Assembly: GCF_023347255.1 (NCBI RefSeq)
Contig: NZ_CP094466.1
Location: 2,294,001 to 2,358,000, forward strand
Direction of reading: 5' to 3'
Length of the DNA: 64,000 nt
DNA from: Faecalibacterium sp. I4-3-84
GTDB lineage: Bacteria; Bacillota; Clostridia; Oscillospirales; Ruminococcaceae
Notes under the pieces: model-generated
Told to the model about the DNA's origin: nothing
Seen by the model: the letters and a program-made list of their open reading frames with translations, nothing else
Database searches by the model: none
In this document: positions 26,890 to 61,499 of the stretch, in pieces
Layout of the letters: every line of letters begins with the position of its first letter
Numbering within the stretch: the stretch's first letter is position 1
Made by a program: the position numbers and the translations under genes

Positions 26890-26911
26890 CTTCGAGACAC
26901 TTTGTCCCGAG
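26890..26911. repeat. 23-bp palindrome, copy 1
   Basis: Core GAGACActtTGTCCC, 4 bases after the parB-like stop codon. One of the two variants with GAG for GGG in the left arm. Confidence 0.75.
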
Positions 26912-26930
26912 GGCCCCGCCCTCGCGCAGA

Positions 26931-27092
26931 GGCTCTGGTGGTATAGATCCCCCGTCGCCGCCTGTTTTTTAGTACAGCCGGGAGTGGGCCGTCAAGGGTG
27001 CAGCGCACCGCCGTTTTCGGCGGCTCGCCCTTGACGGTCTGCCCCGGCTGTGCTATTTCCCGGCAAGCGGCGGGGGTATATCCTCCAGAGCC
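26931..27092. other. 162-nt nested palindrome
   Basis: Successive arms pair around one centre: GGCTCTGG/CCAGAGCC, GATCCCCCGTCGCCGC with GCGGCGGGGGTATATC (near match), ACAGCCGGG/CCCGGCTGT, CCGTCAAGGG/CCCTTGACGG, and a central CGCCG-tttt-CGGCG. A further hairpin CCCTTTCCC/GGGAAAGGG follows at 27097-27120. No ORF covers it. Possible origin, recombination site or structured RNA. Confidence 0.7.
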
Positions 27093-27168
27093 GCCCCCTT
27101 TCCCAAGACTGGGAAAGGGCGTGGGGTTTGGGTTGAACTTTCTTATTAAAATATCGGAGGTATGAACG

Positions 27169-27510
27169 ATGAAACGACCCCTTGCTTATATCACCGCTGC
27201 ATGGCTCGGCGGCGATAGTGAAAACGCAGAACTGGCGGCGCAGTATTGCCGCACCGTGTATGAGGCAGGCTTTTCTCCTATTTGCCCGCCCCTGTACTTG
27301 CCCCTGTTTCTCAATGATGCTGTTCCCGAGGAGCATAAAAGCGGCATCGACATGAGCCGTGACCTGCTCCGCCGTTCTCATGTGCTGGTTGTCTGCGGAC
27401 ACAGTATGACCGAAGCCATGAAAAATGATATTGCCGTGGCCCAGCGGCTGGGAATTACGGCAACAACCCTTGAGGGCATCCTGACCGTCAAGGGACAGGG
27501 CCGCCGCTGA
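27169..27510 (+). CDS. DUF4406/nucleoside-deoxyribosyltransferase-like protein
   Basis: 113 residues with Rossmann-like AYITAAWLGGDSENAEL, VLVVCGHSMTEAMKNDIAVAQ and GITATTLEGI, the pattern of small DUF4406-type proteins found on phages and conjugative elements. Enzyme activity unproven. Its last A overlaps the ardA start. Confidence 0.65.
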   Translation: MKRPLAYITAAWLGGDSENAELAAQYCRTVYEAGFSPICPPLYLPLFLNDAVPEEHKSGIDMSRDLLRRSHVLVVCGHSMTEAMKNDIAVAQRLGITATTLEGILTVKGQGRR

Positions 27511-28223
27511 TGGCGACCCTGTTTGAAGCCTACGTTACCAATGCGGAGAAGTACAGCGAGGGCCAGCTTGTGGGTGAAACACTGAAATTTCCCACAACCG
27601 CCCAGGAGGTGGAGGCTCTCTTGAAACGGATCGGCGTGGATGGCGTCCGCTATCAGGAAATTTTTATTACCTCTTTCGATGGGGATGTGCTGGGGCTCTA
27701 TGACCATTTGAGCGAGTATGAAAATCTGGATGAGCTTAATCATCTGGCCTGCCTGCTTTCCGAGCTTACCTCATCGGAGCTGGAAACACTGGAGGCCGTC
27801 CTCGACAGCGGCGATCACTGTTCTTCGGTGCGGGACATCATCAATCTGACACAAAATCTGGACTGTTACGGTTTTTACCCCGGCGTATCTGATGAAGAAA
27901 CGCTGGGGCGTATTTATGTGGACGATCTGGAAATGTTGGATGTGCCGGATCAGGTAAAACCGTATTTCGATTATGAGGCGTATGGCCGGGATGCCTGCAT
28001 CCACGAAAACGGCCATTTTGCCCCGGGCGGCTATGTTGTCAAAGAAAGCGAGCATTTCGTGGAAGTGTATCACGGCTTGCAGGATATTCCCAAGGAGCAT
28101 AAGGTATTCTCTTTCCCGAAGCTCTCTATCCGGGAGCAGATGGCGGCTTATCAGGAAATCATAGACGGTTCTTCTTTGGAGGGCTACCGCCAAATGCAGA
28201 AAAAAGACCGTGGGGATCGGTAA
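27510..28223 (+). CDS. ardA: ArdA antirestriction protein
   Basis: 237 residues, acidic, with FEAYVTNAEKYSEG at the N-terminus and the later DELNHLACLLSEL and CIHENGHFAPGGYV, matching ArdA-like DNA mimics that block type I restriction after conjugative entry. Directly follows the DUF4406-like gene and is followed within 5 bases by a 23-bp palindrome. Confidence 0.85.
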   Translation: MATLFEAYVTNAEKYSEGQLVGETLKFPTTAQEVEALLKRIGVDGVRYQEIFITSFDGDVLGLYDHLSEYENLDELNHLACLLSELTSSELETLEAVLDSGDHCSSVRDIINLTQNLDCYGFYPGVSDEETLGRIYVDDLEMLDVPDQVKPYFDYEAYGRDACIHENGHFAPGGYVVKESEHFVEVYHGLQDIPKEHKVFSFPKLSIREQMAAYQEIIDGSSLEGYRQMQKKDRGDR

Positions 28224-28227
28224 TGGC

Positions 28228-28250
28228 ACTTCGAGACAAATTGTCCCAAG
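28228..28250. repeat. 23-bp palindrome, copy 2
   Basis: CTTCGAGACA-aat-TGTCCCAAGG, between ardA and pcfB, just before the pcfB ribosome site. Confidence 0.75.
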
Positions 28251-28266
28251 GAAGGAGGCGGTGTAA

Positions 28267-28746
28267 CTGATTGATGAAGATATTTCCCGGCGCACGATAG
28301 CCATATCTGTAAAAACGACCAAGCTGACGGCGCGGGGACTGGCGTATGTGCTGGGCATGGTGGGTCGGAAGATCCGCAAGGCATACCGTGGGCGGCAAGT
28401 ACCACATGGCAAACAAAGTGTGCGAAAGCTCATGGCCCACGGCACAGCCACAAACAGCATTGAGCTATCCGGGGATGCCAAGTCCTTTGACCGCGTGGCC
28501 CGGAAATGGAATGTGGACTATGCGTTCTATAAAACCGGATCGGACAAATACCTGCTGTTTTTCAAGGCTGGACAGGCAGACGCAATGACCGCCTGCTTTT
28601 CTGAGTATTCCCGGAAGGTGTTAAGCAAAGCAAAATCGAACCGTGTTCCCATCCGAGAACAACTGCAACAGGCGGCGGATCAGCTTTCCAAAGAAAAGCC
28701 GAAACAAAAAGAACGTGCAAAGGAGGTGGCCCATGAGGACAGATAA
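28267..28746 (+). CDS. pcfB: PcfB family conjugation protein with CTG start
   Basis: 159 residues if read from CTG 28267: IDEDISRRTIAISVKTTKL is the conserved N-terminus, and no ATG, GTG or TTG lies between the in-frame stop TAA 28264 and this block. GGAGGCGG lies 6-8 bases upstream. Later KSFDRVARKWNVDYAFYKT and KYLLFFKAGQADAM are diagnostic. The next GTG (28348) would delete 27 conserved residues. Overlaps virD4 by 14 bases. Confidence 0.8.
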   Translation: MIDEDISRRTIAISVKTTKLTARGLAYVLGMVGRKIRKAYRGRQVPHGKQSVRKLMAHGTATNSIELSGDAKSFDRVARKWNVDYAFYKTGSDKYLLFFKAGQADAMTACFSEYSRKVLSKAKSNRVPIREQLQQAADQLSKEKPKQKERAKEVAHEDR

Positions 28747-29597
28747 GATCAGAAAATATCTCATTCCGAACATTCCCTATCTGTTCATCCTGTGGGCGTT
28801 CCTCAAGCTGGGGACAGCCTACCGGCTGGCGGCGGGTAACGATTTTGCACATAAGCTCATCGGACTGGGCCAGACGATTGGCCCGGCCTTTGCTGACTTT
28901 GCACCCGGTCTTGCCCCGCTGGATTGGCTTGTTGGTATTGTAGGCGCAGTTGGTTTCCGGCTGCTGATCTATTTCAAAAGCAAGAACGCTAAGAAGTTTC
29001 GGCGGGATGCAGAATACGGCAGCGCTCGATGGGGAACGGAAAAAGACATCAAACCGTTTGTCGATCCGAAGTTTGAAAACAACGTGATTTTGACCGGGAC
29101 GGAGTTTCTCACGATGAACACCCGCCCGAAAATCCCCGCAAATGCCCGAAACCTGAATTGCTGTATTATCGGCTCATCCGGCTCCGGCAAAACCCGCTTC
29201 TGGCTTACGCCCCAGCTTTTACAGGCCCATTCCTCTTATGTGGTGGTCGATCCCAAAGGTGGTGTGCTGGGACAGGTCGGGGCTTTCCTGCAAAAACGCG
29301 GGTACAAAATCAAGGTATTCAACAGCATAGATTTTTCAAAATCCATGCACTATAACCCGCTGGCGTATATCCGCAACGAGGCCGATATTCTGAAATTCGT
29401 GGATGCCCTGATTTCCAACACCAAGGGCGAAGGCAAGGAAGGCGATCCATTCTGGACGAAATCGGAAACGCTTTTGTACTGTGCTCTGATCGCCTACATC
29501 ATTTTCGAGGGGCCTGCCGAGGATCGGAACATGAATACCCTTGTGGATATGATTTCCGGCATGGAGGTCAAGGAGGATGACGAGGATTTTATGAACG
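28733..29597 (+). pseudogene. VirD4-like coupling protein, 5' part (interrupted)
   Basis: About 288 residues: N-terminal membrane segments, EYGSARWG, Walker A GSSGSGKTR, then YVVVDPKGG, ending at DDEDFMN. Element B1 interrupts it here; the 3' part resumes at 35977 with SGKTAKSILISC. Compared with homologues about 30 codons are missing between the two parts, so even clean removal of B1 would not restore the gene. Confidence 0.88.
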
Positions 29598-29700
29598 GTG
29601 CGACCCTAATTGCAGTGTAAAACTCCCGTAGTAGGGTGACACCACTGCAAACCTGATAAGAGGTGCTAAGGAGGTGAAAAGCGGCACACTCTTGTAGGTA
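29598..29700 (+). ncRNA. Candidate 5' end of a group II intron (remnant)
   Basis: Begins GTGCGAC, fitting the GUGYG intron start, directly after an interrupted codon run of virD4. TTGCAGTG pairs with CACTGCAA around CTCCCGTAGTAGGGTG, like the first helices of domain I. No maturase, domain V or intron 3' end is present, so it would be a fragment. Confidence 0.4.
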
Positions 29701-29705
29701 ATTGA

Positions 29706-30650
29706 TATGACTGGAGGCGGCATTGTGCCGATTGCGGCGGCAAGATGTATGTCCACCGCACCAACAATGGCAAGAGGATTTCTCAATATACCTGTTCCAA
29801 TTATACCAAAGTTCCGTGTGGGACACTATGCCATACACAACACCGTATCAATGAGAGTGCTGTTCTGACATTGGTTTCCGACACGCTCCGGGCTATCGCT
29901 GAATATTCCAAAAATGACCGGACGGAATTTATTCACACCGTTCAGGAAACGCAGGTTGCCCAACAGAGTGCCGATATAGCGAAAAAGCGCAGGCGTCTGG
30001 CCGCTGCTCAAAAGAGAGCCGGAGAACTGGAAAAACTGATTTGCAAAATCTATGAGGACAATGTCCTCGGCAAGCTGCCGGATGCACGATATAGGGCGCT
30101 TGATGCACAGTATGCCAAAGAGCAGGACGCACTTGAGATTGAAATTGCGGAGCTGGAAAAGGCTGTTACCGGCTACGAGCAAAGCCAGAAATCAGCGGAG
30201 AAATTTATAGCCCTGATTGATAAATACGAGAATTTTGACACGCTGACAAACACCATGCTCAATGAGTTTGTAGAGAAAATCCTTGTCCACGAACGCGCCC
30301 GAAAAGGCAGTCAGGACACCACGCAGGAAATTGAAATCTACTTCAATTTTTTAGGACGCTATATCCCACCATCCTTACAGCCGGTTCCTTTAACCCCGGA
30401 GGAACAGGAAGAACTGCGGAAAAAAGAAGAACGCAAGGACAGGCTTCATCAGAATTATTTGAAGCGGAAAGCCAGCGGCGCACAGAAACGGTATGAGGAC
30501 AAAATCAAGGCGAAGAAAAAAGCGGAAATGGACGCTAAGAAAGCCCTGATCCGGGCTGAGGATATGAAAAAAGGCGTTTTTTCTACTGTCGGACAGCTGC
30601 CGAAAGAAGAACCACGCAAAGGCAGCATAGCAGCCAGCGCAGCAGTCTAA
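29706..30650 (+). pseudogene. Large serine recombinase, C-terminal part
   Basis: About 314 residues: zinc beta-ribbon (CADCGGKMYVHR .. CGTLCHTQHRI), coiled coil and FVEKILVHERARKGS, typical of TnpX/TndX-type recombinases. The catalytic serine domain is missing; the fragment abuts the intron-like sequence. An unusually long Lys/Glu-rich tail (after PPSLQPVPLTPEE) follows. Confidence 0.85.
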
Positions 30651-30676
30651 TCATCACGAAGCAAAGGAGAATGAAT

Positions 30677-30886
30677 ATGAGTAAGTTGACTTACATTCGT
30701 TGTGGAGATTATGATATACCCAACCTAAAACTTTCTGAACAGCCGGAAACTTCTATCGGCAAGTACGGCAGAATGCGAAAATCCATGCGGGAGGATTTGA
30801 AAGCAGTGGAACGGCTCCGCAAAACCGCCGATCAGCTGTCCCGACAGGAAAGGGATAAGTCTCACGACCGTGGGCCGGAGCGGTAA
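30677..30886 (+). CDS. TnpV-like protein fragment
   Basis: 69 residues. The first 40 (SKLTYIRCGDYDIPNLKLSE .. IGKYGRMRK) match the TnpV family of transposon proteins. The rest (LKAVERLRKTADQLSRQERD) does not and seems joined by deletion. AAGGAG precedes ATG 30677. Confidence 0.55.
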   Translation: MSKLTYIRCGDYDIPNLKLSEQPETSIGKYGRMRKSMREDLKAVERLRKTADQLSRQERDKSHDRGPER

Positions 30887-30993
30887 AGGCTACCGCGTTT
30901 TGGCGTATCCCTGTCAAGTGCGTCGCGTTTCACGACATACTTTTGCATACAGAAAAACCGCCGTACAGGTTTCCCCATACGGCGGCAGACTGT

Positions 30994-31284
30994 TTATTTG
31001 CCGAACAAATCGCTGTGTGTGCCGGTGCGGGCCAGCGTCAGCACCAGAACATCATCCTCTATGCGATAGACAAGCAGCCAGTCCGGGAGAATATGACATT
31101 CCCGATGGCATGCCCAATCGCCGGACAGGTCATGGTCACGGTTTTTATCCGGCAGCGGCTCGCCCATTGCCAGCAATGCTACGACCTGCTCCAGCAGCTC
31201 AATCTTCAAGCCACGCTTGATGGCTCGTTTGTAGTCCTTTTTGAAACTGGTCGTGTACTTGACGGTATATTTGGTTTCTTTCAT
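30994..31284 (-). CDS. YafQ/RelE-type toxin
   Basis: 96 residues: YTTSFKKDYKRAIKRG, DHDLSGDWACHRECHILPDW and LARTGTHSDLF, the pattern of YafQ mRNA interferases with a conserved C-terminal His. Overlaps the antitoxin by 4 bases (ATGA). Probably stabilises B1. Confidence 0.9.
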   Translation of the reverse strand: MKETKYTVKYTTSFKKDYKRAIKRGLKIELLEQVVALLAMGEPLPDKNRDHDLSGDWACHRECHILPDWLLVYRIEDDVLVLTLARTGTHSDLFGK

Positions 31285-31559
31285 CTTTTCAGGTCAGCAA
31301 ACAACTCGTCAAGGTCATTGTAGCCCTTTACAGACGGGTCTTTTGCAATCCTTTCCGCTTCCAGCATGGCAGCAACCGTTTCTTTGTTCGGCTGTTCCAG
31401 CCTTACTTCAAAGGGAATGCCGCCTTCACGAAGCGACTGGCGCACAAAGATGTTAAACGCCGTAGTCAGGTTCATGCCAAGTTCAGTAAACAGTGCGTCC
31501 GCCTGCGCTTTCAAATCTGCGTCCATGCGGATACTGATGTTTGTGGTATTTCCAGCCAT
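31281..31559 (-). CDS. RelB/DinJ-type antitoxin
   Basis: 92 residues from ATG 31559: ISIRMDADLKAQADALFTEL is the ribbon-helix-helix, and LGMNLTTAFNIFVRQSL the second helix pair; C-terminal YNDLDELFADLKR would bind the toxin. AAAGGGG upstream. First gene of the toxin-antitoxin operon, expected to autorepress it. Confidence 0.9.
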   Translation of the reverse strand: MAGNTTNISIRMDADLKAQADALFTELGMNLTTAFNIFVRQSLREGGIPFEVRLEQPNKETVAAMLEAERIAKDPSVKGYNDLDELFADLKR

Positions 31560-31599
31560 ACGATCAACCCCTTTCTGCTGGCAATTATAGTATATGCCA

Positions 31600-31630
31600 T
31601 TTGCACGAAAAAAACAATACTTTGCACGAA
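31600..31630 (-). promoter_or_regulatory. Direct repeats in toxin-antitoxin promoter
   Basis: TTTGCACGAA at 31600-31609 and 31621-31630, 21 bases apart (two helical turns), just upstream of a leftward TATAAT (31584-31589). Candidate operators for the antitoxin. Confidence 0.45.
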
Positions 31631-31685
31631 TATTTAACAATAAATTCACTGGAGGAGGTTACACGCTTTATGAAAGAAATCATTT

Positions 31686-32084
31686 ATGAAGAACAACAAG
31701 ACTGAACCTATCCTTGTCATGGATTACCGCCAGTACCGCAGAGCGCGGAGGCTGGTGCATGAGTGCTGCAACTACATCGACGGAAACTGTATCGCTCTGG
31801 ACGATGGGGAGGAATGTGTCTGTGTCCAGTCTATTTCCTACTCCCTGTTGTGCAGGTGGTTTCGGACGGCGGTATTGCCGCAGGATAAGGAACTGGAAAC
31901 GGCGCTGTTCCATCGGCTAAATGCTAAGAAGTGCGCCGTATGCGGGGCGCTGTTTACCCCCGGTTCTAACCGGGCCAAATACTGCCCGGAATGTGCCGTA
32001 CGCATGAAGCGGATCAACGCCGCAAAGCGCAAGCGGAAACAACGGGAGAAATGTCACGCTTTAGGGGCTGAAAAACCCTTGTAA
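31686..32084 (+). CDS. Cysteine-rich VLP domain protein
   Basis: 132 residues. N-half with CCNYIDGNCIAL and CVCVQS cysteines and SLLCRWFRTAVLP (the VLP region), C-half with a zinc finger CAVCGALFTPGSNRAKYCPEC. Paralogue at 57324 in the host element. Function unknown; widespread in clostridial conjugative elements. Confidence 0.75.
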   Translation: MKNNKTEPILVMDYRQYRRARRLVHECCNYIDGNCIALDDGEECVCVQSISYSLLCRWFRTAVLPQDKELETALFHRLNAKKCAVCGALFTPGSNRAKYCPECAVRMKRINAAKRKRKQREKCHALGAEKPL

Positions 32085-32197
32085 ATCAAGGCTTTTTTCG
32101 AGGGTGTCAACGGTAAGCTGATAGATTTATCCTCTGACCCCTAAAATAGCCTTAAAATGCGTACAGAATCCCAAGAGAACCCCAAAGGAGGAACCCT

Positions 32198-32932
32198 ATG
32201 TCAGACAATCGAAAATATTATTACCTGAAACTCAAAGAAAACTATTTTGACGATGATTCCATCGTGCTGCTGGAAAGTATGCAGGACGGTGTGCTGTATT
32301 CCAACATTCTGCTCAAGCTGTATCTGAAATCGCTGAAACATGGCGGACGGCTTCAACTTGACGAGGACATCCCTTACACGGCGCAGATGATTGCCACCAT
32401 TACCCGCCAGCAGATCGGCACTGTGGAGAGAGCCTTGCAGATCTTTTTGAAGCTGGGTCTTGTGGAGGTGCTGGACAGCGGCACATTCTACATGAGCAAC
32501 ATCGAACTTTTAATCGGCCAGTCCTCTACCGAGGCTGAGCGAAAGCGGGCTGCGAGGCTTCAAAATAAGGCTCTTTCTGCGCTCCAGACAAGTGGCGGAC
32601 ATTTGTCCGACATTCGTCCACCAGAGATAGAGATAGAGTTAGAGAAAGAGATAGAGATAAAGAGAGAGATAGAGAAGGGACACCCCGCCCACGCCTATGG
32701 CCGTTACCAGAATGTTTTCCTGACGGACGGGGAACTGGCAGACTTACAGGCCAGCTTTCCCACTGTATGGGGCCAGTACATCGAAAAGCTGTCCGAGTAC
32801 ATGGCTTCTACCGGCAAGCGGTATCAGAGCCATGCCGCCACCATCCGGCGCTGGGCCGGTGAGGACGCTAAAAAAACGATCACACCCTCACGCAACCGGG
32901 ATTACAGCGTAAAGGAGGATGAAACTGTATGA
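32198..32932 (+). CDS. Phage replisome organizer-type protein (B1 copy)
   Basis: 244 residues. N-terminal winged helix NRKYYYLKLKENYFDDDSI .. TRQQIGTVERALQIF matches phage replisome organizers; a highly charged EIEIELEKEIEIKREIEK linker; then a DnaD-like C-terminal part (SHAATIRRWAGED). It probably loads the DnaC-like protein encoded next. Paralogue in B2 at 41780, sharing a 66-bp identical stretch. Confidence 0.8.
   Translation: MSDNRKYYYLKLKENYFDDDSIVLLESMQDGVLYSNILLKLYLKSLKHGGRLQLDEDIPYTAQMIATITRQQIGTVERALQIFLKLGLVEVLDSGTFYMSNIELLIGQSSTEAERKRAARLQNKALSALQTSGGHLSDIRPPEIEIELEKEIEIKREIEKGHPAHAYGRYQNVFLTDGELADLQASFPTVWGQYIEKLSEYMASTGKRYQSHAATIRRWAGEDAKKTITPSRNRDYSVKEDETV
32594..32659 (+). repeat. 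66-bp sequence identical in B1 and B2 (copy a)
   Basis: Starts GGCGGACATTTGTCCGAC and ends AGAGATAGAGATA. Identical to 42176-42241 within otherwise diverged paralogues. Confidence 0.85.
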
Positions 32933-33792
32933 TTGAGATTACCGCAGAAATCCGGGCGCTGATCGACAAGGCAGCCGCCAGTGTGGAGCTGGCCGGGGAC
33001 GAGTACATAGACCCGGCAGACGGCCTCATTCACTGTAAGAGGTGCGGCGGCCAGAGGCAGACCGTTGTGCCATGCTTTGGGAAACCCGGCTACTTCATGC
33101 CCCGCTGTATCTGCCAGTGCCAGCGGGAGACCGAGGAACAGCGCAAGGCCGCTGAGGAACGGCAGCGCCGCATGGAGCGTATCAAGCGCCGGAAGGCCCA
33201 GGGCCTGCAAGACCGCTATCTGTACGACTACACCTTTGCCAACGACAACGGCCAAAATCCCCTGATGGACAAGGCCCGCGCCTATGTGGAGAACTGGAAA
33301 GAGGCATATAAGAGCAATATCGGGCTTTTGCTGTTTGGAGATGTGGGAACCGGCAAGTCTTTCTTCGCCGGATGTATTGCCAACGCTTTGCTTGACCAGG
33401 ATGTGCCGGTGCTGATGACGAACTTTCCCACCATTCTGAACCGCCTGACCAGGATGTTCTCTGAGGACAGGTCGGAGTTTATTGCCAGCTTTGACGAGTA
33501 TGACCTGCTTATCATTGACGATCTGGGAGTAGAGCGCAGTACCGAATATGCTATGGAGCAGATGTTTTTCGTCATCGACAGCCGCTACCGCAGCCGCAGG
33601 CCCATGATTATCACAACAAACTTGAAACTGTCCGAGCTGAAAAACCCGCCTGATCTGGCCCACGCCCGTATCTATGACCGTATTCTGGAACGGTGTGCGC
33701 CGATTCTTTTTGACGGGAAGAATTTCCGGGAAGAAAATGCCGGTGCTACCCGACAGACAGCAAAAGACATTGTAAACAGTAAGCAAGACTGA
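32929..33792 (+). CDS. DnaC-like helicase loader ATPase
   Basis: 287 residues: N-terminal zinc-type cysteines (CKRCGG .. CICQCQ), AAA+ domain with Walker A GDVGTGKSFF, Walker B DLLIIDDLG and TTNLKLSEL sensor. Overlaps the replisome organizer by 4 bases. Together they would load a DnaB-type helicase for replication of the excised element. Confidence 0.88.
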   Translation: MIEITAEIRALIDKAAASVELAGDEYIDPADGLIHCKRCGGQRQTVVPCFGKPGYFMPRCICQCQRETEEQRKAAEERQRRMERIKRRKAQGLQDRYLYDYTFANDNGQNPLMDKARAYVENWKEAYKSNIGLLLFGDVGTGKSFFAGCIANALLDQDVPVLMTNFPTILNRLTRMFSEDRSEFIASFDEYDLLIIDDLGVERSTEYAMEQMFFVIDSRYRSRRPMIITTNLKLSELKNPPDLAHARIYDRILERCAPILFDGKNFREENAGATRQTAKDIVNSKQD

Positions 33793-33835
33793 TTTTTTAC
33801 CGGGCGGCACAGACCCGTTCGGAGAAAGGAGCGCC

Positions 33836-34030
33836 ATGAACAGAGAACCCCGTACTATGCAGATGGCAGATGCCGTTACTGCGTCCAGAGCGCTGGAAAA
33901 CACGCCGGCGATGGTAAAGAAAATCGGTAAGACAACCTACAAGGTTCATGTCCATTTCAGCAATACCAGCACAGAAACCATGAGCGATAAAATCAAGCGT
34001 ATGCTCAAAAATGAAATTCAGCAAATGTGA
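33836..34030 (+). CDS. TnpW-like transposon protein
   Basis: 64 residues with KKIGKTTYKVHVHFSNTS and MSDKIKRMLKNE, matching small TnpW-type proteins found beside recombinase genes in Tn4451-like elements. GGAGAAAGGAG precedes ATG. Function unknown. Confidence 0.75.
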   Translation: MNREPRTMQMADAVTASRALENTPAMVKKIGKTTYKVHVHFSNTSTETMSDKIKRMLKNEIQQM

Positions 34031-34473: not shown

Positions 34474-34529
34474 TTCACATGCAAACGTGCCAGAAGCAAT
34501 AAAATGCTTCTGGCACGTTGTTACGAATT

Positions 34530-35976: not shown

Positions 35977-36864
35977 TCGGGCAAGACGGCAAAAAGCATT
36001 TTGATTTCCTGCGGTGCGCGACTGGCTCCCTTTGACATCCCGCAGCTTCGTGAAGTCATGGCTTATGACGAATTGGAGCTTGACCGCATCGGAGATCGGA
36101 AAACGGCGGTATTCTTCATCATTTCCGATACCACGCAGACCTACAACTTTTTAGTGGCACTTGCATTTTCGCAGATGTTCAATCTGCTGTGCGAGAGGGC
36201 CGACAATGTTCACGGAGGCCGCCTGCCCCATCATGTACGGGTGCTGTGGGACGAGGCCGCCAACACAGGGCAGGTTCCCCAGCTTGAAAAGATCGTGGCT
36301 GTCATCCGTTCCCGTGAGATCAGCTTGACGCTGTTCTATCAGCAGTTGGCTCAGTGTAAGGCGATTTACGATAAACACGCCGAAACCATTTTGGGAAATA
36401 TGGACAGCGTGATATTCCTCGGGGGCCGGGAGGCCAGCACCATCAAGGAAATATCCGAGAACTGGCTGGGTAAGGCTACAATCTCCATGCAGACGGACAG
36501 CCGCTCCCGTGGCCAGTCGGAAAGCTACAGTCAAAATAACCAGCGGCTGGGCCGGGAATTGATGACACCCAGCGAGTTGGCAACCATGCCCGGGGATAAG
36601 TGCATTTTACAGCTTCGGGGCCTGCCCCCGTTCTATTCCCCGAAATACGATTTGAAAAAGCACCCGAACTACCGATATACGGCTGAAGCCGACAAAAAGA
36701 AAAACACCTTTGACCTTGACCGGCTTATCAACCGCCGCAGGCGGCCCGGGCCGGACGAGCTGTGTGAGGTGTATGCCGTGGCTGTGCCGGATGATGGGCT
36801 CACAAGCGAGGACGAGGACATCCTCAATTATGATGACATCGACGATCCGGACGCCTTTGCATAA
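35977..36864 (+). pseudogene. VirD4-like coupling protein, 3' part
   Basis: Open frame from SGKTAKSILISCGARL (35977) to the native stop: FFIISDTTQTYN, Walker B VLWDEAANTG, LFYQQLAQCK and the end of the TraG domain (LLRGLPPFYS-like LQLRGLPPFYSPKY). No proper start codon precedes it (TTG 36001 lies inside conserved sequence). It is the downstream half of the gene begun at 28733. Confidence 0.88.
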
Positions 36865-36870: not shown

Positions 36871-36893
36871 CTTTGGGACAAAGTGTCCCGAAG
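36871..36893. repeat. 23-bp palindrome, copy 3
   Basis: CTTTGGGACA-aag-TGTCCCGAAG, 6 bases after the virD4 stop. Confidence 0.9.
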
Positions 36894-50378: not shown

Positions 50379-51147
50379 CCGCACTTTGGGACAAAGTGTC
50401 CCGAAGGAGGGCTTGTTTCTCATGGATGGCATTGAGGGCCTGCGCTCCCTGCCGAAGCATAGCGTGGATATGCTGCTGACCGATCCGCCCTACGGCACAA
50501 CCCGGAATTATTGGGATGTGCCCCTGCCGCTCCCGGAGCTGTGGGAGGCGGTGAAATGGGCGGTCAAGCCGAATGGCGCGGTGCTGTTCTTCGCACAGTG
50601 CCCCTTTGACAAGGTGCTGGGCGCATCCAACCTCGCCATGCTCCGCTATGAGTGGATTTGGTACAAGGAGCGCGGAACAGGCTTTCTCAATGCAAACCGG
50701 GCTCCGCTGAAAAAGTCTGAGAATATCTTGGTGTTTTATCAGAAGGCCCCTGTCTACAATCCACAGTTTACTTACGGCAAGCCATATACCCGTGTTCATT
50801 CCCGAAGCGGTACAAGCTCCAACTATGGGAAATTTGAACGGCAGGGATCGGAGTCCAACGATGGCCGCCGCTATCCCGGAAATGTACTATTTGTGCCTAC
50901 GGTGTCCGGCGGCATCCACCCCACGCAGAAGCCCGTGGAGCTCTGCGAGTATCTGATCCGCACCTATACCCACCCCGGAGAACTGGTCGCGGACATTTGC
51001 GTTGGCTCCGGCACAACCGCGATTGCAGCCATCAACACAGAACGCCGCTTTGTATGCTTTGAAACGGCCCCGTCCTTTTATGCCGCCGCCAGTGAGCGCA
51101 TCCGTGCGGCGCAGGCAGTAAAAAGCTCCGGCGAGAAAGGAGTGTAA
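50368..51147 (+). CDS. DNA methyltransferase (N6-adenine/N4-cytosine type)
   Basis: 259 residues from ATG 50368; ATG 50422 with AAGGAGG is an alternative. LLTDPPYGTTRN (catalytic DPPY) precedes VADICVGSGTTAIAA (SAM site), the order of beta-class enzymes. Codons 6-13 consist of the 23-bp palindrome (TLGQSVPK), so the native start may be 50422 and the extra part dispensable. No restriction enzyme adjacent: probably protects incoming element DNA. Confidence 0.85.
   Translation: MTDSRTLGQSVPKEGLFLMDGIEGLRSLPKHSVDMLLTDPPYGTTRNYWDVPLPLPELWEAVKWAVKPNGAVLFFAQCPFDKVLGASNLAMLRYEWIWYKERGTGFLNANRAPLKKSENILVFYQKAPVYNPQFTYGKPYTRVHSRSGTSSNYGKFERQGSESNDGRRYPGNVLFVPTVSGGIHPTQKPVELCEYLIRTYTHPGELVADICVGSGTTAIAAINTERRFVCFETAPSFYAAASERIRAAQAVKSSGEKGV
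50384..50406. repeat. 23-bp palindrome, copy 4
   Basis: CTTTGGGACA-aag-TGTCCCGAAG, between the SpoVG-like stop and the methyltransferase ribosome site. Confidence 0.9.
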
Positions 51148-51719
51148 TTATCCAGCAGTATTCTATCATTTACGCCGATCCCCCTTGGCGCTACTCGGCT
51201 AAGAAAGTACAGGGCGCGGCGGAAAACCATTATCCCACTATGAGCATTGAGGATTTATGTGCGTTGCCTGTGGCTGATCTTGCAGCCCCGGACAGCGCAC
51301 TCTTTTTATGGGCCACTTTCCCGCAGCTCCCGGAGGCGCTCCGGTTGATCGAGGCTTGGGGCTTCACCTACAAAAGCGTTGCTTTCGTTTGGCTGAAAAA
51401 GAACAAGAAAGCGGATAGCTGGTTTTACGGCCTTGGCTTCTGGACAAGGGGCAACGCGGAAATCTGCCTGCTGGCAACCAAGGGCCACCCGAAGCGGCAG
51501 GCCGCCAACATTCATCAATTCATCATTTCTCCGATTGAGGCCCACAGCAAAAAGCCGGACGAGGCCCGCGACAAAATCATTTCCCTGATGGGAGATCTGC
51601 CCCGCGTGGAGCTCTTTGCCAGGCAGACCCCGCCTGGCTGGGCTGTATGGGGAAATGAAGTAACACCAACCATCCCGGACTTTGGGACACATTGTCCCGA
51701 AGTGCAGAAAGGAGTGTGA
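51147..51719 (+). CDS. MT-A70 family adenine methyltransferase with ATT start
   Basis: 190 residues if read from ATT 51147: IIQQYSIIYADPPWRYS includes the essential DPPW motif. No ATG/GTG/TTG lies upstream in frame before a stop; ATG 51240 would remove DPPW. AAAGGAG ends 4 bases upstream. Homologous small methylases usually start with ATG at this place, so ATT is probably a one-base variant. Later FLWATFPQLPEAL and a segment ending GNAEICLLATKG fit the family. The last codons form a 23-bp palindrome. Confidence 0.82.
   Translation: MIQQYSIIYADPPWRYSAKKVQGAAENHYPTMSIEDLCALPVADLAAPDSALFLWATFPQLPEALRLIEAWGFTYKSVAFVWLKKNKKADSWFYGLGFWTRGNAEICLLATKGHPKRQAANIHQFIISPIEAHSKKPDEARDKIISLMGDLPRVELFARQTPPGWAVWGNEVTPTIPDFGTHCPEVQKGV
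51680..51702. repeat. 23-bp palindrome, copy 5
   Basis: CTTTGGGACA-cat-TGTCCCGAAG, inside the last codons of the MT-A70 gene (DFGTHCPEV). Confidence 0.9.
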
Positions 51720-56125: not shown

Positions 56126-56139
56126 CAGGAGGTTTTGAA

Positions 56140-56394
56140 ATGGCAACTACCAAAAGCATGAAAATTCAGGCCGAGATTGATAAGGTCAAGGCCAAAATCA
56201 GTGAACAGCAGGCCCGGCTCAAGGAGCTGGAGCAGAAAAAGCTGGAGGCGGAAAACAGCGAGATCGTGGACATTGTGCGCGGCATGAGCATTTCCCTTAC
56301 GGAGCTCCCGCTGCTGTTTGAGAAACTGAAGGACGGCGGCACTTTGGGACAAAGTGTCCCGAAGTCCGAAGAAGAAAAGAAGGAGGAAAACTGA
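56140..56394 (+). CDS. DUF4315 family protein
   Basis: 84 residues: coiled coil KIQAEIDKVKAKISEQQARL .. KKLEAEN and IVDIVRGMSISLTEL. Typical small gene after the NlpC/P60 gene in such elements. Palindrome in its last codons (TLGQSVPK). RBS AGGAGG upstream of ATG 56140. Confidence 0.85.
   Translation: MATTKSMKIQAEIDKVKAKISEQQARLKELEQKKLEAENSEIVDIVRGMSISLTELPLLFEKLKDGGTLGQSVPKSEEEKKEEN
56342..56364. repeat. 23-bp palindrome, copy 7
   Basis: CTTTGGGACA-aag-TGTCCCGAAG inside the 3' end of the DUF4315 gene. Confidence 0.9.
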
Positions 56395-56396
56395 AT

Positions 56397-57146
56397 ATGA
56401 AACACTTTCGTATGTTGGCGGCGGGGCTTTGCTCCGCCGTTCTTTTATGCGGCTCTGCGATTCCAGCCTACGCCTATTCGGACAGTGGGAATGAGGAACC
56501 GCCTGTTGTGGAAGAAACTCCGGCCCCGGAGCCTGCACCTACCATTACCCCGGGCGAGGGCTTTTCGGAGGATGGAAACCTTGTGACCCGCGATCTGCTC
56601 TATGATGCTGCAACCAACAAACAGTTCATCACGGTGGAAACCAGCGGCGGCAACACCTTTTACATTGTCATTGATTATGACAAGCCTGTGGACGAGGACG
56701 GCGAACAGTATCACACCTACTTTCTGAACATGGTGGATGAAGCCGATCTGCTGGCGGCACTGGAGGCCGCTGGCGGAGAGCTTCCAGCCTGCTCCTGCAC
56801 AGAAAAATGTGCGCCCGGAGCCATCCATACGGATTGCGAGGTCTGCGCGGTCAACATGACCGAGTGTGCTGGCACAGCTCCCGAACCCGCCCCGGTGACG
56901 GAACCTGTGGAGGAGCCGGAACCCGAACCCCAGCAAAAAAGCAATACCGGGACACTTCTGCTGATTTTGGCAGTGGCTGTTCTGGGCAGCGGTGCAGGCT
57001 GGTACTTCAAAATCTACCGCCCGAAGCATGAAAAAGCTGCTGTATCCGAAGAGGATTACAGCGAGGAACTGGCCGATTATGACGATCCCGAGGACGATGG
57101 GCCGCCTTGGGACGAGGACGATACCGAAAGCGAGGATAATGAATGA
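56397..57146 (+). CDS. DUF4366 surface protein
   Basis: 249 residues: signal peptide ending AIPAYA, extracellular domain with FITVETSGGNTFYIVIDYDK and YHTYFLNMVDEADLL (DUF4366), Cys-rich CSCTEKCAPGAIHTDCEVC, Pro-rich spacer, membrane segment TLLLILAVAVLGSGAGWYF near 190-208 and an acidic cytoplasmic tail. Probably a surface component of the transfer machine. Confidence 0.88.
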   Translation: MKHFRMLAAGLCSAVLLCGSAIPAYAYSDSGNEEPPVVEETPAPEPAPTITPGEGFSEDGNLVTRDLLYDAATNKQFITVETSGGNTFYIVIDYDKPVDEDGEQYHTYFLNMVDEADLLAALEAAGGELPACSCTEKCAPGAIHTDCEVCAVNMTECAGTAPEPAPVTEPVEEPEPEPQQKSNTGTLLLILAVAVLGSGAGWYFKIYRPKHEKAAVSEEDYSEELADYDDPEDDGPPWDEDDTESEDNE

Positions 57147-57319
57147 GATTTACAAATAACCCCTATGAGGGATTTATGAAAGAAAAAAGCTACTTCAAGG
57201 GTGTGCCGCCCAGCCTGCCGCCGAAGGGCTCCCGCTGTGATGGCTGCCCTTACTGGCGCGGGATCGGCTGCGTGTTCTGCTACCGGGAGCAGCTCAAACC
57301 ACCGGGCAACGGGAGGTGA
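57143..57319 (+). CDS. Small cysteine-rich protein
   Basis: 58 residues: RFTNNPYEGFMKEKSYFKG and CDGCPYWRGIGCVFC, a compact zinc-type cluster. Overlaps the DUF4366 stop (ATGA) and precedes the VLP gene. Function unknown. Confidence 0.7.
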   Translation: MRFTNNPYEGFMKEKSYFKGVPPSLPPKGSRCDGCPYWRGIGCVFCYREQLKPPGNGR

Positions 57320-57323
57320 TGCT

Positions 57324-57677
57324 GTGGGCCGAGAACTGACCCGGACAGAAAAAGCGGCAATCCGCAGGCTGGTGTCAAAATGGTGTGCCAACTATGACCG
57401 GGACTGCGGCTGCCTGCCGCTGGATTGCGAGTGCTATATGTTTGGGAAATGCTGGACGGGGGCTTATTGCCGCTACTTCCGCGAGGCTGTTCTGCCCCTT
57501 GATCCGGCGCTGGAGGCTGCGCTGCTGGCAGAAGGGCCAAGGCCGGATTTCAAGGCTTGCCCGGTATGCGGCAGAGCCGTGGCTCCTGATGGACGGCAAA
57601 CCTATTGTTCGGCGGCCTGTGCAAAGGCGGCACACCGCAGACAGCAGCGGGAATATATGCGGAAAAAACGGGGCTGA
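57324..57677 (+). CDS. Cysteine-rich VLP domain protein
   Basis: 117 residues from GTG 57324 (GGAGG upstream). ELTRTEKAAIRRLVSKWCAN, CGCLPLDCECYMFG, YCRYFREAVLPLDP and a C-terminal zinc finger (CPVCGRAVAPDGRQTYCSAAC). Paralogue of 31686 in B1. Confidence 0.8.
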   Translation: MGRELTRTEKAAIRRLVSKWCANYDRDCGCLPLDCECYMFGKCWTGAYCRYFREAVLPLDPALEAALLAEGPRPDFKACPVCGRAVAPDGRQTYCSAACAKAAHRRQQREYMRKKRG

Positions 57678-57807
57678 TGTGTTGACAATTAGGACATCCA
57701 AAACCCGCCTGTGACAAGGCTTTTTAAGGCCCTTTTCTGCGGGAGGCGTATATTTCTACGTCCGGCCCTGTTTCCGTGAGATGCTGTCAACATTTTAGCT
57801 GCCGGGG

Positions 57808-57830
57808 CTTTGGGACAATTTGTCCCAAAG
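57808..57830. repeat. 23-bp palindrome, copy 8
   Basis: CTTTGGGACA-att-TGTCCCAAAG, a fully symmetric copy, 27 bases before the next gene. Confidence 0.9.
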
Positions 57831-57856
57831 TTCCGGCTTTTGTGGAAGGAGGTACT

Positions 57857-58816
57857 ATGCCGAAATATTATCCGATCAATGAAGAAGCCGCAAAGCGGGC
57901 AAAGGATATGAACAGCTTTTCCGACTATCAGCCGGGCTCCGCTACGACGAGCTACCGGGCAATGGTCGATGAAGCGTATGTAGCGGCGGAACGCCAGAAA
58001 GCGCGTGTCGATCCCATGTACCACGATAAGATTGACGCTCTGGTGGATCGCTATGCCCGGAAACTTGCGGAAAATCTGAATGAACGCAATGTGATTGATG
58101 CCCGGGTACCCTCTATTCTGATCTCCGGGGGCGGTAATTTTCCTGTAGCAAAAAAGCACAAGCAGAACGCCGCCCGGGATCGCAACTATGGAGAGTGTGC
58201 GGAGATTTCAAAGCTGCTTGATAAAATCCGCTCTGTTGGTATGGGCGGGATCAGCGCAGACGATGATCTGGCCGTGGAAAAGCTGACAAAAAAGCTGGAG
58301 GGGCTGGAGTCCCAGCAGGCCACCATGAAGGCGGTCAATGCGTATTTTCGGAAACACAAAACGCTGGACGGCTGCCCGGAGCTTACGCCGGAGCAGGCAG
58401 AAAAGCTCAAAGCAGATATGGCGCAGTCATGGCACTTGGATAAAAGCAAGCCGTATCCCGCCTATCTGCTTTCCAACAACAACGCCAACATCCGCCGTGT
58501 ACGCCAGCGCATTGAGGAACTGAGCAGCCGCTCCGAGTTTGCAGGCTGGACATTCCCCGGAGGCGAGGCAAAAATCAACGAGGCTGAAAATCGTTTGCAG
58601 CTTATTTTTGAGGAAAAGCCCGATGCCAATCAGCGGCAGGAACTGAAAAGCAACGGCTTTAAGTGGGCTCCCAGCCAAGGGGCATGGCAGCGGCAGCTTA
58701 ACCAGAACGCCATCCGTGCTGCGGCCCGGATAGACTTTCTGCGGCCCGAGGACGGTACAAGCCCCTATCAGCTCCAGCCGTTTGTGAAAAGAGAAAACAA
58801 AGAAATGTCTCGATGA
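57857..58816 (+). CDS. Conserved hypothetical protein of conjugative element
   Basis: 319 residues from ATG 57857 (AAGGAGG upstream). Soluble, helical. YRAMVDEAYVAAERQKARVD, a central DLAVEKLTKKLEGLESQQAT coiled coil, and NGFKWAPSQGAWQRQLNQNA near 290. Similar large proteins accompany mobC/relaxase in these elements. Function unknown. Confidence 0.7.
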   Translation: MPKYYPINEEAAKRAKDMNSFSDYQPGSATTSYRAMVDEAYVAAERQKARVDPMYHDKIDALVDRYARKLAENLNERNVIDARVPSILISGGGNFPVAKKHKQNAARDRNYGECAEISKLLDKIRSVGMGGISADDDLAVEKLTKKLEGLESQQATMKAVNAYFRKHKTLDGCPELTPEQAEKLKADMAQSWHLDKSKPYPAYLLSNNNANIRRVRQRIEELSSRSEFAGWTFPGGEAKINEAENRLQLIFEEKPDANQRQELKSNGFKWAPSQGAWQRQLNQNAIRAAARIDFLRPEDGTSPYQLQPFVKRENKEMSR

Positions 58817-58829
58817 TGGGAGGTGTACT

Positions 58830-59414
58830 ATGGACAAAAATCAAGGCTATGCTATTTTGAAGGCGGTCATGCTGGAAAATGGGCGGGGATTTGCATTGGG
58901 CGAACATCCCACCGCGCCATCCCGCTATGTCACATGGGCCTGCTATGATGACAAGGACGGCCAGCGGCAGTACGAATGGGGTCACTATGGAAATGACCGC
59001 GCCGCGATGGAACAGGATTTTACAGACCGGGTGCAGGACTATCAGCGGATTTATAACGTGGGGATCAGGCAGACCGAGGCTCCCGGCCTTTACAAGTATT
59101 ATTCGACCCAGCGGCCTGTGGACATCGGGACATTCCCGAAGCCGCCCTATAACAAGCCGGATGAAATCTTCAATTACGATCAGCGCATCCCGGTGGAAAA
59201 TGGCTCGTTCTTGGCTTGGGGCTATCTTACCTATACCCGCCCGCTAACGGAAAAACAGGCATCCGACTATGAGCTGCGTCCTGCGCCTGATAATCCCGAC
59301 AGGCCCCGTCCGATTGCCGAGCAGATGAAAAATGCGGCAAAGTTGGCGGAGGCAGATCGCGGCTCGGAGGCTCCGGCTCCCCAACGGAGGCAGCCTGACC
59401 GTGGCGATAGATAA
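58830..59414 (+). CDS. Conserved hypothetical protein of conjugative element
   Basis: 194 residues: KNQGYAILKAVMLENGRGFA, then SRYVTWACYDDKDGQRQYEW and C-terminal RPRPIAEQMKNAAK, which resembles the tail of the SpoVG-like protein (PIKEQMAEAAK). Possibly of the DUF4316/YodL group; not certain. GGGAGG precedes ATG. Confidence 0.65.
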   Translation: MDKNQGYAILKAVMLENGRGFALGEHPTAPSRYVTWACYDDKDGQRQYEWGHYGNDRAAMEQDFTDRVQDYQRIYNVGIRQTEAPGLYKYYSTQRPVDIGTFPKPPYNKPDEIFNYDQRIPVENGSFLAWGYLTYTRPLTEKQASDYELRPAPDNPDRPRPIAEQMKNAAKLAEADRGSEAPAPQRRQPDRGDR

Positions 59415-59426
59415 GGAGGTGCGTAT

Positions 59427-59591
59427 ATGGAAAAGAAACGTGAACAGGAATTGTCTGTACTGGAGGTGCTGCGCCTGCACCGTGAATTTCATTTGCCGCA
59501 CCCTGTTCCGGCAGACGAACAGGAAAAGCCGCTGGATAAAGTAAAGGAGCCGCCCCGCGCCTGCCGCAGCCGGGAGCGTGAGGAACGATGA
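59427..59591 (+). CDS. Small hypothetical protein
   Basis: 54 residues from ATG 59427 (AAGGAGG upstream): KKREQELSVLEVLRLHREFH and a charged tail. Overlaps mobC start by 4 bases (ATGA). Function unknown. Confidence 0.6.
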   Translation: MEKKREQELSVLEVLRLHREFHLPHPVPADEQEKPLDKVKEPPRACRSREREER

Positions 59592-59935
59592 CAAAGAAAC
59601 GCCGCCGTCCGATCCATTTTCATGTGATGGTGTCGGAGGCGGAGCAGGCCCTGATTCAAGAACGTATGGCGGAGGCTGGCATCCGTAACATGGGAGCCTA
59701 TATGCGGAAAATGGCCCTGAGTGGGTATGTGCTTCATGTTGACCTTTCGCCTGTTCGTGAGCTGGTTTCGCTCCAGCGGCGCTGCTCCAACAATCTGAAC
59801 CAAGTGGCAATTCAAGCCAACACCTACGGCGCGATTTATCCCGAAGAACTCGCGGCCTTGCAGCGGGACTATGCCGCTTTGTGGGGGCCGCTGTCTGATC
59901 TCTTGAAACAGCTCTCCGCGCTGGTAGAGCTCTGA
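59588..59935 (+). CDS. mobC: MobC-like relaxosome protein
   Basis: 115 residues: basic N-terminus, ribbon-helix-helix HFHVMVSEAEQALIQERM, AYMRKMALSGYV and the RRCSNNLNQVAIQANTYG signature. Works with the relaxase encoded next. Coupled to the preceding small gene. Confidence 0.9.
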   Translation: MTKKRRRPIHFHVMVSEAEQALIQERMAEAGIRNMGAYMRKMALSGYVLHVDLSPVRELVSLQRRCSNNLNQVAIQANTYGAIYPEELAALQRDYAALWGPLSDLLKQLSALVEL

Positions 59936-59977
59936 CCCATCCGGGGAGTGGTTGATACCGCTCCCCGGCTTTTTCTA

Positions 59978-60000
59978 CTTCGGGACAAAGTGTCCCAAAG
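59978..60000. repeat. 23-bp palindrome, copy 9
   Basis: CTTCGGGACA-aag-TGTCCCAAAG between mobC and the relaxase gene. Confidence 0.9.
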
Positions 60001-60033
60001 TAAAAATACTGTTTGCCGGAAGGAGGGATTTTT

Positions 60034-61440
60034 ACGGCGACCACCTACATCCGCCCTTATAAAACAGCGGCGGGAAAAAGTGCAATTCAAACGATGGAGG
60101 ATCGTTTCACCTATGGCCTGAACCCGGAAAAGCTGGGAGCCGTATCTTCCTATCTCTGCGATCCGAACACGGCTCCCGCCGAGTTTCTTCTGGTAAAAAG
60201 TCAATACCTTGCAGAGACAGGCCGGGCCGTATCTCGCGGGGCACTGTTCTTTCAGATCCGGCAGGCGTTCCTGCCCGGGGAGGTTACGGCGGAAGAAGCA
60301 AATCGTATCGGTTATGAAACGGCGATGCGCTGGACAAAGGGAAAGTATCAGTTCTTCGTCTGTACGCATACCGACAAGGCCCATATTCACAATCACATTT
60401 ATTTCAATGCGACGGCCTTTGACTGCTCCCGGAAATTTCATAATTTCATTGGTTCGTCCTTTGCCCTGCGGCGGCTCTCTGACCGCGTGTGCATCGAACA
60501 TGAACTGTCTGTTATCCAAAATCCGCGCCAGCACAGCAAGGGCTGCTTTCTTCACTATGGCCAGTGGATTGGGGAAAAGCCGCCCTCTGCCAAGCAGAGG
60601 GTACGGCTGGCTATTCTCGCCGCTTTGGAGAAAAAGCCCACAAACTTTGCCGATTTTCTCCGGCTTATGGAGGAGTCCGGCTTTTCGGTGAAACAGGGAC
60701 GAGGCGGTGTCATCTCATTTCTCGCGCCCGGACAGGAAAAACCGACCCGGCTCCGGGCTTCTACACTGGGAGCTGGATTTGACCCGGAGGACATCAAGGC
60801 AGTAATTGCCGGGGAACGTCCGCTCCCCGAGCTGCCAGAGGAGCCCACGGTTCCGCCACGGCGAGTTAATCTCATCATCGACATTCAAAAGCGTATGGCC
60901 CAGGGCAAGGGCCCGGCTTATGAACGATGGGCCAAGGTCTACAACTTAAAGCAGATGGCGGCTGCACTCCAGTATTTGCAGGAGCATCATCTGACAGACT
61001 ATGCGGCGCTGACGGCCAGCACCGAGGCTGCGGTGGATTACTTTCACAAGCTGTCTGACGAACTCCGCACAACGGAGGAGGCTCTTTCCAAAACCTCGGA
61101 GCTGATGGCTGCCACGGTGGACTATGCCAAGACCCGCCCGGTGTTCGACGGGTACAAGGCTGCACGGTACAGCAAAAAGTATCTGGCCCAGCATGAAGCG
61201 GAGCTTGCCACTTACCGGGCGGCAAAGGATACCATGAACACCAGACTGAACGGCGCAAAGCTCCCTAAAATAGAAGTACTAAAAAAATCCCGCCGTGAGC
61301 TGGCGGGACAAAAGAAAGAGCTTTATGCGGAATACCGCAAGGCCCAGGCGGATATGCGGCAGGCTGTGGCAATCAAGGCGAACATTGATCATCTGCTCGG
61401 CGTGACGGACGGGCGGGAAAATAAGGCCCAGGAGCGATAG
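60034..61440 (+). CDS. Conjugative relaxase with ACG in start position
   Basis: 468 residues if read from ACG 60034: ATTYIRPYKTAAGKSA is the usual N-terminus, GGAAGGAGGG ends 6 bases upstream, and ATG is expected where ACG stands. TTG 60013 is in frame but overlaps the ribosome site. HUH core FVCTHTDKAHIHNHIYFNAT near residue 120; central and C-terminal parts share AQGKGPAYERWAKVYNLKQM with the B2 relaxase. Initiates transfer of the host element. Confidence 0.87.
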   Translation, partial: TATTYIRPYKTAAGKSAIQTMEDRFTYGLNPEKLGAVSSYLCDPNTAPAEFLLVKSQYLAETGRAVSRGALFFQIRQAFLPGEVTAEEANRIGYETAMRWTKGKYQFFVCTHTDKAHIHNHIYFNATAFDCSRKFHNFIGSSFALRRLSDRVCIEHELSVIQNPRQHSKGCFLHYGQWIGEKPPSAKQRVRLAILAALEKKPTNFADFLRLMEESGFSVKQGRGGVISFLAPGQEKPTRLRASTLGAGFDPEDIKAVIAGERPLPELPEEPTVPPRRVNLIIDIQKRMAQGKGPAYERWAKVYNLKQMAAALQYLQEHHLTDYAALTASTEAAVDYFHKLSDELRTTEEALSKTSELMAATVDYAKTRPVFDGYKAARYSKKYLAQHEAELATYRAAKDTMNTRLNGAKLPKIEVLKKSRRELAGQKKELYAEYRKAQADMRQAVAIKANIDHLLGVTDGRENKAQER

Positions 61441-61476
61441 CGACAGGCCGCCGACAACAGGCGCATAGCGCCGGGA

Positions 61477-61499
61477 CTTTGGGACAATTTGTCCCGAAG
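61477..61499. repeat. 23-bp palindrome, copy 10
   Basis: CTTTGGGACA-att-TGTCCCGAAG, 36 bases after the relaxase stop; the last copy in the window. Confidence 0.9.

Follow-up and report, generated by a model that had tools for sequence, protein, structure and literature searches.

A ParB-like protein of a Faecalibacterium conjugative element and its predicted array of palindromic sites

The stretch of DNA considered here (the window; 64,000 nucleotides of Faecalibacterium sp. I4-3-84, contig NZ_CP094466.1, positions 2,294,001 to 2,358,000) carries an integrative and conjugative element (ICE) along which 23-bp palindromes are dispersed. The element begins with the gene for an orphan ParB-like protein of 482 residues (25438..26886, forward strand). 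Judging from protein residues and site bases that vary together, this protein almost certainly binds the palindromes. Whether KorB-like silencing is its main role is evenly balanced. A more complete account is held with slightly less than even confidence: the family would keep its own parS-like site within parB, giving a predictive code, and in one lineage ParA would have disappeared and the site become a dozen ICE-silencing operators, mostly at gene boundaries, which changed together with the specificity of the protein and altered the peptides of unrelated proteins.

Each palindrome consists of two 10-bp arms and a 3-bp spacer. The original prediction had listed ten copies, all of which are present; the one given at 28228 starts at 28229. 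The core pattern GRGACANNNTGTCYC has 13 matches in the 3.12-Mb genome, all of them within this one ICE, which bears out the claim that the motif is absent outside the element. The reversed pattern has none, and a shuffled-sequence control gave 0 matches. The 13 comprise the ten listed copies, one inside the gene for the ParB-like protein and two beyond the end of the window. Two of them (26890 and 28229) are weaker versions that have GAGACA in the left arm. The intervals from 28.3 to 36.8 kb and from 36.9 to 50.3 kb, in which we place the two inserts, contain no copy.

Relatives of the ParB-like protein were found by protein search in 103 of 393 genomes of the class; most of the matches listed have about 300 residues (short forms), and a few are as long as the window protein (long forms). 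The long-form set of 90 loci was assembled from 80 genome loci, kept from 448 relatives in a scan of genome_contigs (84,980 species), six of eight loci on viral contigs (L163 and L164 were not used), the window and three more loci. A palindrome search run de novo, with no motif supplied, recovered GGGACA-N3-TGTCCC in the window element (8 exact copies) and, at three further loci of the long form, GGGCCA-N3-TGGCCC (7, 3 and 2 exact copies); one of these three loci is in the same genome. With a third class, TGGACA-N3-TGTCCA, the 90 loci fall into class A (GGGACA; 60), class T (TGGACA; 20) and class C (GGGCCA; 4). Of the six unclassified loci, five end at most 135 bases after parB, and the sixth (L110) has 10 kb downstream with one site.

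The suggestion that copy number might track the ParB-like gene has held up: of the 56 long-form loci that extend 9 kb or more downstream of the gene, 46 carry four sites or more, nine carry two or three, and L110 has its single one. Extended elements, at up to one core mismatch, carry 13 (window), 12, 12, 15, 13, 14, 11 and 19 sites. In 16 genomes or records reached via the loci, a general pattern has 12-37 matches compared with 0-1 for its reversal, part of the former being other palindrome groups, for example in G646. Nor is the motif common in genomes without the element or the ParB-like gene, although other genomes do contain some copies: of 118 further genomes of the family, 22 contain YGRGACANNNTGTCYCR, at 1-5 copies each (11 for the reversed control), and of 146 further genomes in the order sample, 17 do (11 for the control). 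At least one of these stray sites is part of a related parB gene (L229). Around others (L180-L183; G008, G254, G020), GGGACA-type palindromes form small groups, and the 15 kb fetched there contained no ParB-like gene. L177 (G646:C234) and other G646 contigs contain several copies of TCTGGACATCATGTCCAGA, three of them within a frame of 3,376 codons; no ParB-like gene is present in the fetched stretch of L177.

The short forms carry a site of their own. Of 89 short-form genes or gene fragments, 79 have a palindrome with 8-10 of 10 pairs matched in the linker ahead of the helix-turn-helix (HTH), 185-220 nt past the GHRR codons; its shape is that of the long-form sites. Elsewhere in those genes, 46 of 79,380 sequence windows reach 8 pairs. 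The outer and central bases of the short-form sites are alike; the inner four are element-specific and mostly match across the arms. Eleven short-form loci that span 11-20 kb each contain a single copy of their own site, the one in parB. Searches with phmmer and a single ParA query (supplied by L170) detected a ParA relative in 10 of 15 short-form loci; with one query, the fetched stretches of the 90 long-form loci gave none (20 of these loci include less than 1 kb upstream). The ParA-activating box [LFI]G[KR]G[LFI] occurs in 0 of 90 long forms and 0 of 89 short forms. One locus (L170; G639:C95:28000-41210) has a short-form ParB, a ParA upstream and six dispersed TGGACATWATGTCCA-type sites, none of them inside parB. 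It is possibly an intermediate between the two organisations.

The case for binding rests on covariation between the HTH and the site. The HTH of the window protein, GKRSVEIVGEAHEMNYKKVMRYLRL (26413..26487, forward strand), was placed by alignment of the 90 long forms and by this covariation. Residues are numbered as in Caulobacter ParB, following our ungapped HTH alignment, in which R328 corresponds to 160, Y341 to 173 and K342 to 174. The comparison covers 65 protein-site pairs less than 80% identical, 58 of them short forms with their own site and seven long forms with the consensus of their class, and bases are counted from the left arm. Lysine or arginine at 174 goes with G7 (26/26 rows with the residue, 0/39 otherwise), D174 with G8 (7/7 and 0/58) and R201 with C10 (10/10 and 0/55), so that all 65 pairs agree with each of these three rules. 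A fourth, R160 with G5 (20/21 and 5/44), agrees in 59 of 65; given as both/residue only/base only/neither, its counts are 20/1/5/39. In the short forms alone, the corresponding counts are 19/0/0/39 for K/R174-G7, 7/0/0/51 for D174-G8, 10/0/0/48 for R201-C10 and 14/1/5/38 for R160-G5. In the right arms, the first three rules are again exceptionless and R160-G5 stands at 20/1/7/37. Sister-pair tests with grouped residues gave p = 4e-9 for K/R174, 2e-4 for D174 and 7e-4 for R160. For residue 201 and base 10, p was 0.004, and for raw residue 174 with bases 7 and 8 it was 0.0008. Columns encoded by the palindrome were excluded from the raw covariation scan; some of the strongest other covarying pairs join base 1 to residues 144-151, which adjoin the site-encoded linker, and we read this signal as kinship or coding effects.

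The long-form classes obey the rules of the short forms: R160 goes with G5, L160 with T5, K174 with G7 and Y173 with A8 (one exception, L053). For V173 with C8 or T8, there is a single short example (L200). A hold-out set was drawn from 73 new loci, namely 43 of 80 viral loci (the weaker L287-L323 were left out) and 30 genome loci; 25 of the 73 lacked a site, and 22 of the remaining 48 were removed because they were at least 80% identical to other rows. In the resulting 26 pairs, the counts are 7/1/1/17 for K/R174-G7, 3/0/2/21 for D174-G8, 7/0/2/17 for R201-C10 and 8/0/1/17 for R160-G5. All exceptions stem from four rows: L286 and L268, whose HTH is misaligned or has gaps, L262, with a gap at position 160, and L340, a 553-residue form in which the palindrome found is probably the wrong one. 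The proposal that the ParB-like protein reads the palindromes is, therefore, strongly supported.

In the long forms, site class matches the HTH in 84/84 classified loci. The HTH starts with GKLS in 20/20 class T proteins and with GKRS in the 60 class A and four class C proteins; the recognition helix starts with MNYK in classes A and T and with M[SA]VK in class C. A tree that leaves out the HTH and linker columns places class T inside class A (local supports 0.93 and 0.96; 0.49 for the class C node), which leads us to infer that its sites switched together. This would include sites within coding sequence. The original prediction had pointed out that three genes encode the palindrome as GQSVPK, and it is indeed in frame at 50384, 54501 and 56342; the copy at 51680 is likewise coding, as FGTHCPE. 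Over the site, the methylase, NlpC/P60 and DUF4315 genes encode GQSVPK in two elements of class A, GQNVPK or GQNVPN in another of that class, and GQSVQK, GQSVHK or GQGVQK in class T. Class C has GQVGPK or GQVGPN in NlpC/P60, DUF4315 and a DUF3801 gene. These families were checked with Pfam in the window, in class T L168 and in class C L063, and assigned by position elsewhere. The site inside the parB of G639_C124 and of AP018533_T, both class T, is hybrid, with one arm of type A and the other of type T; that of the Clostridium cadaveris element is not hybrid. Some sites appear to have switched class inside coding sequence, together with the change in specificity.

The protein itself is a ParB superfamily relative, with an N-terminal extension, a ParB_N domain (residues 209-282; Pfam match, 2.8e-14), a ParB-type HTH and a C-terminal domain, the last two assigned by alignment and model and not by a Pfam match. 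Profile matches to structures in the PDB cover the N-terminal part: Myxococcus ParB is best (5.7e-22), and Spo0J, Noc and KorB (2.2e-8) also match. The best AlphaFold2 model of the core has a mean predicted local distance difference test (pLDDT) score of 79, and Foldseek relates it to structures of ParB with cytidine triphosphate (CTP) at an E value of 7e-12. Two motifs read from the sequence of the extension, RRGRPPKA (25735..25758) and RKGRPPKA (25807..25830), both on the forward strand, are AT-hook-like. The motif G[RK]P is present in 58/60 class A, 20/20 class T and 2/4 class C long forms and in 23/89 short forms. In the CTP-binding motifs, the GxRR arginines and the asparagine and arginine of box III are retained, and the glutamates are replaced.

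As to placement, the original prediction held that every copy lies at a gene junction. This is nearly right: the exception is the copy at 25864, at about residue 142 of the 482-residue protein. Of 106 sites in eight elements, 31 are at most 30 nt after a stop codon (mechanically called plus-strand open reading frames), compared with 2-3% of random positions. By our own definition, 73 of 106 lie near a gene boundary, compared with 18-28% at random; these counts leave out three of the 12 sites of G639_C118, and the sites are not independent, because many are homologous between elements.

A scheme for the origin of this arrangement would start from a module of ParA and ParB whose parB gene contained one parS-like site. 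The long-form lineage would then have lost ParA and acquired an N-terminal extension, usually with AT-hook-like motifs; copies of the site would have increased to about 11-19 in most of the extended elements (to 4 in two of them), mostly at gene boundaries. The protein may load at each site and coat or slide over the adjacent DNA, as RK2 KorB does, so that transfer genes would be kept silent and the sites in and after its own gene would serve autoregulation. The window protein would be expected to prefer GGGACANNNTGTCCC over TGGACA or GGGCCA variants. KorB-like repression with autoregulation is preferred here because no ParA was found, because there are sites in and after the protein's own gene, and because boundary sites extend across the transfer genes.

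This scheme has several points against it. The CTP motifs are altered, with GERR changed to GHRR and the glutamate of ENxQR changed to serine in class A, so that clamp formation and sliding are uncertain. Superposition of the whole model is poor (TM scores of 0.3-0.4), and the other four AlphaFold2 models have pLDDT values of 65-72. A reading of the sites as promoter operators was rejected, since a scan of 48.6-61.5 kb for consensus promoters found no strong promoter beside most of them. Two long-form elements, AP018533_A (41 kb) and the second element of this genome (40 kb), have just four sites. Ten of the 89 short-form genes or fragments lack the palindrome (L049, L051, L170, L185, L213, L214, L217, L220, L225 and L227); L213 and L217 scored 8, with a palindrome judged not to be the site, and L051 resembles a long-form fragment. 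In the code, the raw sister-pair test gives p = 0.087 for base 5 and residue 160 and p = 0.67 for residue 162, and the residue groups (R or not R; K/R) were picked after the table had been seen. Its exceptions are L053 (Y173 with C8), L235 (R160 with T5) and five rows without R160 that have G5. None of the 10 rows with R201 has a lysine at 179 or 184. Finally, in class A the A of pair 6 (GAGACA) is found on the left, upstream arm alone (23 to 0 of 49 flank-non-redundant sites), which is unexpected for a symmetric site.

Other explanations of the palindromes differ in what they would have the sites do. They might be hairpins in mRNA, acting as processing, stability or termination signals, an alternative raised in the original prediction that we now regard as very improbable. 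The palindrome can fold, the backbone genes beside the sites lie on one strand, and a terminator-like match (57801-57837) includes one of the sites. However, when all pairs of the 103 flank-non-redundant sites are pooled, G-U wobbles show no overall preference for the sense strand (51 sense, 57 antisense). At pair 2 they favour the sense strand, 35 to 10, as a hairpin would predict, whereas at pair 6 they are wholly antisense (0 to 23); since these opposite, position-specific biases cancel, the strand test is weak and not clean, and the biases may reflect shared descent. The spacers AAG and CTT are about equally frequent (11:10 in class A, 10:11 in class T), which also speaks against RNA. The stronger argument, and the main ground for preferring a DNA site, is the covariation with the DNA-binding HTH. 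That same covariation, together with the two copy-free inserts, counts against chance or a selfish repeat spreading in the element. A spreading repeat could account for three unrelated proteins sharing a peptide over the site; with 0 matches expected, chance is already refuted, and this explanation as a whole has next to no probability.

Two readings accept binding by the ParB-like protein and assign it another role. The sites could form a spread-out centromere or condensation array, gathered into one body that stabilises the excised ICE, perhaps via a host ParA and with no silencing. This is unlikely, yet it is a serious contender: the protein is a ParB relative, short relatives with ParA bear the same kind of site, and L170, with ParA, has its sites dispersed. 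Against it, ParA was not found in the fetched stretches of all 90 long-form loci, which favours KorB-like silencing. The missing ParA box argues in the same direction, weakly, as the short forms lack it too, and a centromere does not need placement at gene boundaries, for which the enrichment is strong. Alternatively, protein bound at gene ends might act as a roadblock or insulator, limiting read-through in a long operon and so tuning expression. The sites just after stop codons (31/106) and the scarcity of promoter-like sequences nearby fit such a role; those located within early codons or midway along the ParB-like gene do not, and we consider it distinctly improbable.

The individual copies are placed as follows. 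The copy inside the ParB-like gene (25864..25886) was not listed by the original prediction. Four bases past the stop codon of the same gene lies the copy at 26890..26912, which has a counterpart in the same place in class T and C elements. Further copies are found directly past the ardA stop codon (28229..28251) and directly past the C-terminal part of the VirD4/TraG gene (36871..36893). The coding copies fall in early codons of the DNA methylase gene (50384..50406; LGQSVPK), in the last codons of the MT-A70 gene (51680..51702; FGTHCPE), in early codons of the NlpC/P60 gene (54501..54523; SGQSVPK) and in late codons of the DUF4315 gene (56342..56364; LGQSVPK). The copy at 57808..57830 is within a mechanically called reading frame (57776-58816), upstream of the likely ATG near 57857. 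The relaxase gene is flanked by a copy between a terminator-like hairpin and the gene (59978..60000) and by one past it (61477..61499). The two copies past the window end lie at window-equivalent positions 65596 and 66837 (L005, right flank).

The element, presumably of the Tn1549-like type, has the ParB-like gene (25438) at one end and a serine recombinase gene (66931-68613) at the other. Its gene families include ArdA, VirD4/TraG, TrbL-like, PrgI, a TraG P-loop/HerA-like ATPase, NlpC/P60, CD1107-like and relaxase. The gene for the VirD4/TraG coupling protein is split (28643-29620 and 36001-36864) by an inserted mobile element of about 6.4 kb. At 62202-64269 and at 1287-3111 of L005, there is a response regulator gene and after it, by our reading, a sensor-kinase-like gene; then come a lipoprotein-like gene and one that encodes a sigma-70 region 4 domain, and the site at 65596 lies just upstream of the likely start of the latter. 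Elsewhere in the same genome there are three more ParB-like genes (G000:C1:420138, 2666932 and 2748933; L066, L071 and L059), whose sites differ, with inner bases TGGA, GTGC and GGGC, and a ParB-like fragment with a stop at 2522682. Incompatibility, in the sense that co-resident elements avoid a shared site, was considered as well: the inner four bases are shared in 4/33 co-resident pairs and in 93/3,207 between-genome pairs, so that avoidance is unsupported.

Among known systems, ParABS shares ParB_N and the HTH, and short relatives have both ParA (10/15) and a parS-like palindrome in parB (79/89). Chromosomal parS is nearly universal, and in Bacillus subtilis one parS lies within spo0J; here, no ParA was found with the long form, and the sites lie at gene boundaries and differ between elements. 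Noc is a ParB relative with no known ParA that has several NBS sites on the chromosome, whereas the sites described here are on a mobile element. Structures of KorB are among the profile and structure matches of the window protein, and the multiple dispersed sites (13 in the window element, 11-19 in seven others, 4 in two) are a KorB-type feature. According to PMC11790492, RK2 KorB is a ParB-family protein of a conjugative element that controls genes from operator sites, and its operator, OB, has 16 bp, as against 23 bp with a spacer here. Other differences are the AT-hook-like N-terminal extension, the integrated Clostridia element and the diverged CTP motifs; silencing in the present case is a prediction. 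For ParB and Noc, PMC7383237 names R173, T179, A184 and G201 as specificity positions and reports that R201 of Noc recognises cytosine 6, provided that a lysine is at 179 or 184; R201 pairs with a C near the centre in both Noc and the present family, but the required lysine is absent here. Many orphan ParB proteins without a ParA box are on mobile elements, as surveyed in PMC12704722, the accessible part of which gives neither binding sites nor such an array for them. In the open-licence PubMed Central papers searched, the literal motif strings were not found, nor was any description of these sites, of an intragenic parB site in this family or of the recognition code; absence in print is unproven. 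Orphan ParBs on mobile elements are thus known, and the site array, the intragenic site and the code appear new.

The vancomycin resistance transposon Tn1549 is named as a prototype of such conjugative elements in PMC5512222. They occur in many gut Clostridia, as the 80 loci kept in a single scan illustrate. With a set of operators that spans the element, the ParB-like protein would be a candidate master switch for the element's genes. The private sites inside parB constitute a natural data set on how ParB proteins choose their DNA, and the joint change of about a dozen operators, some of them coding, would be an unusual and directly testable case of coevolution between a regulator and its sites.

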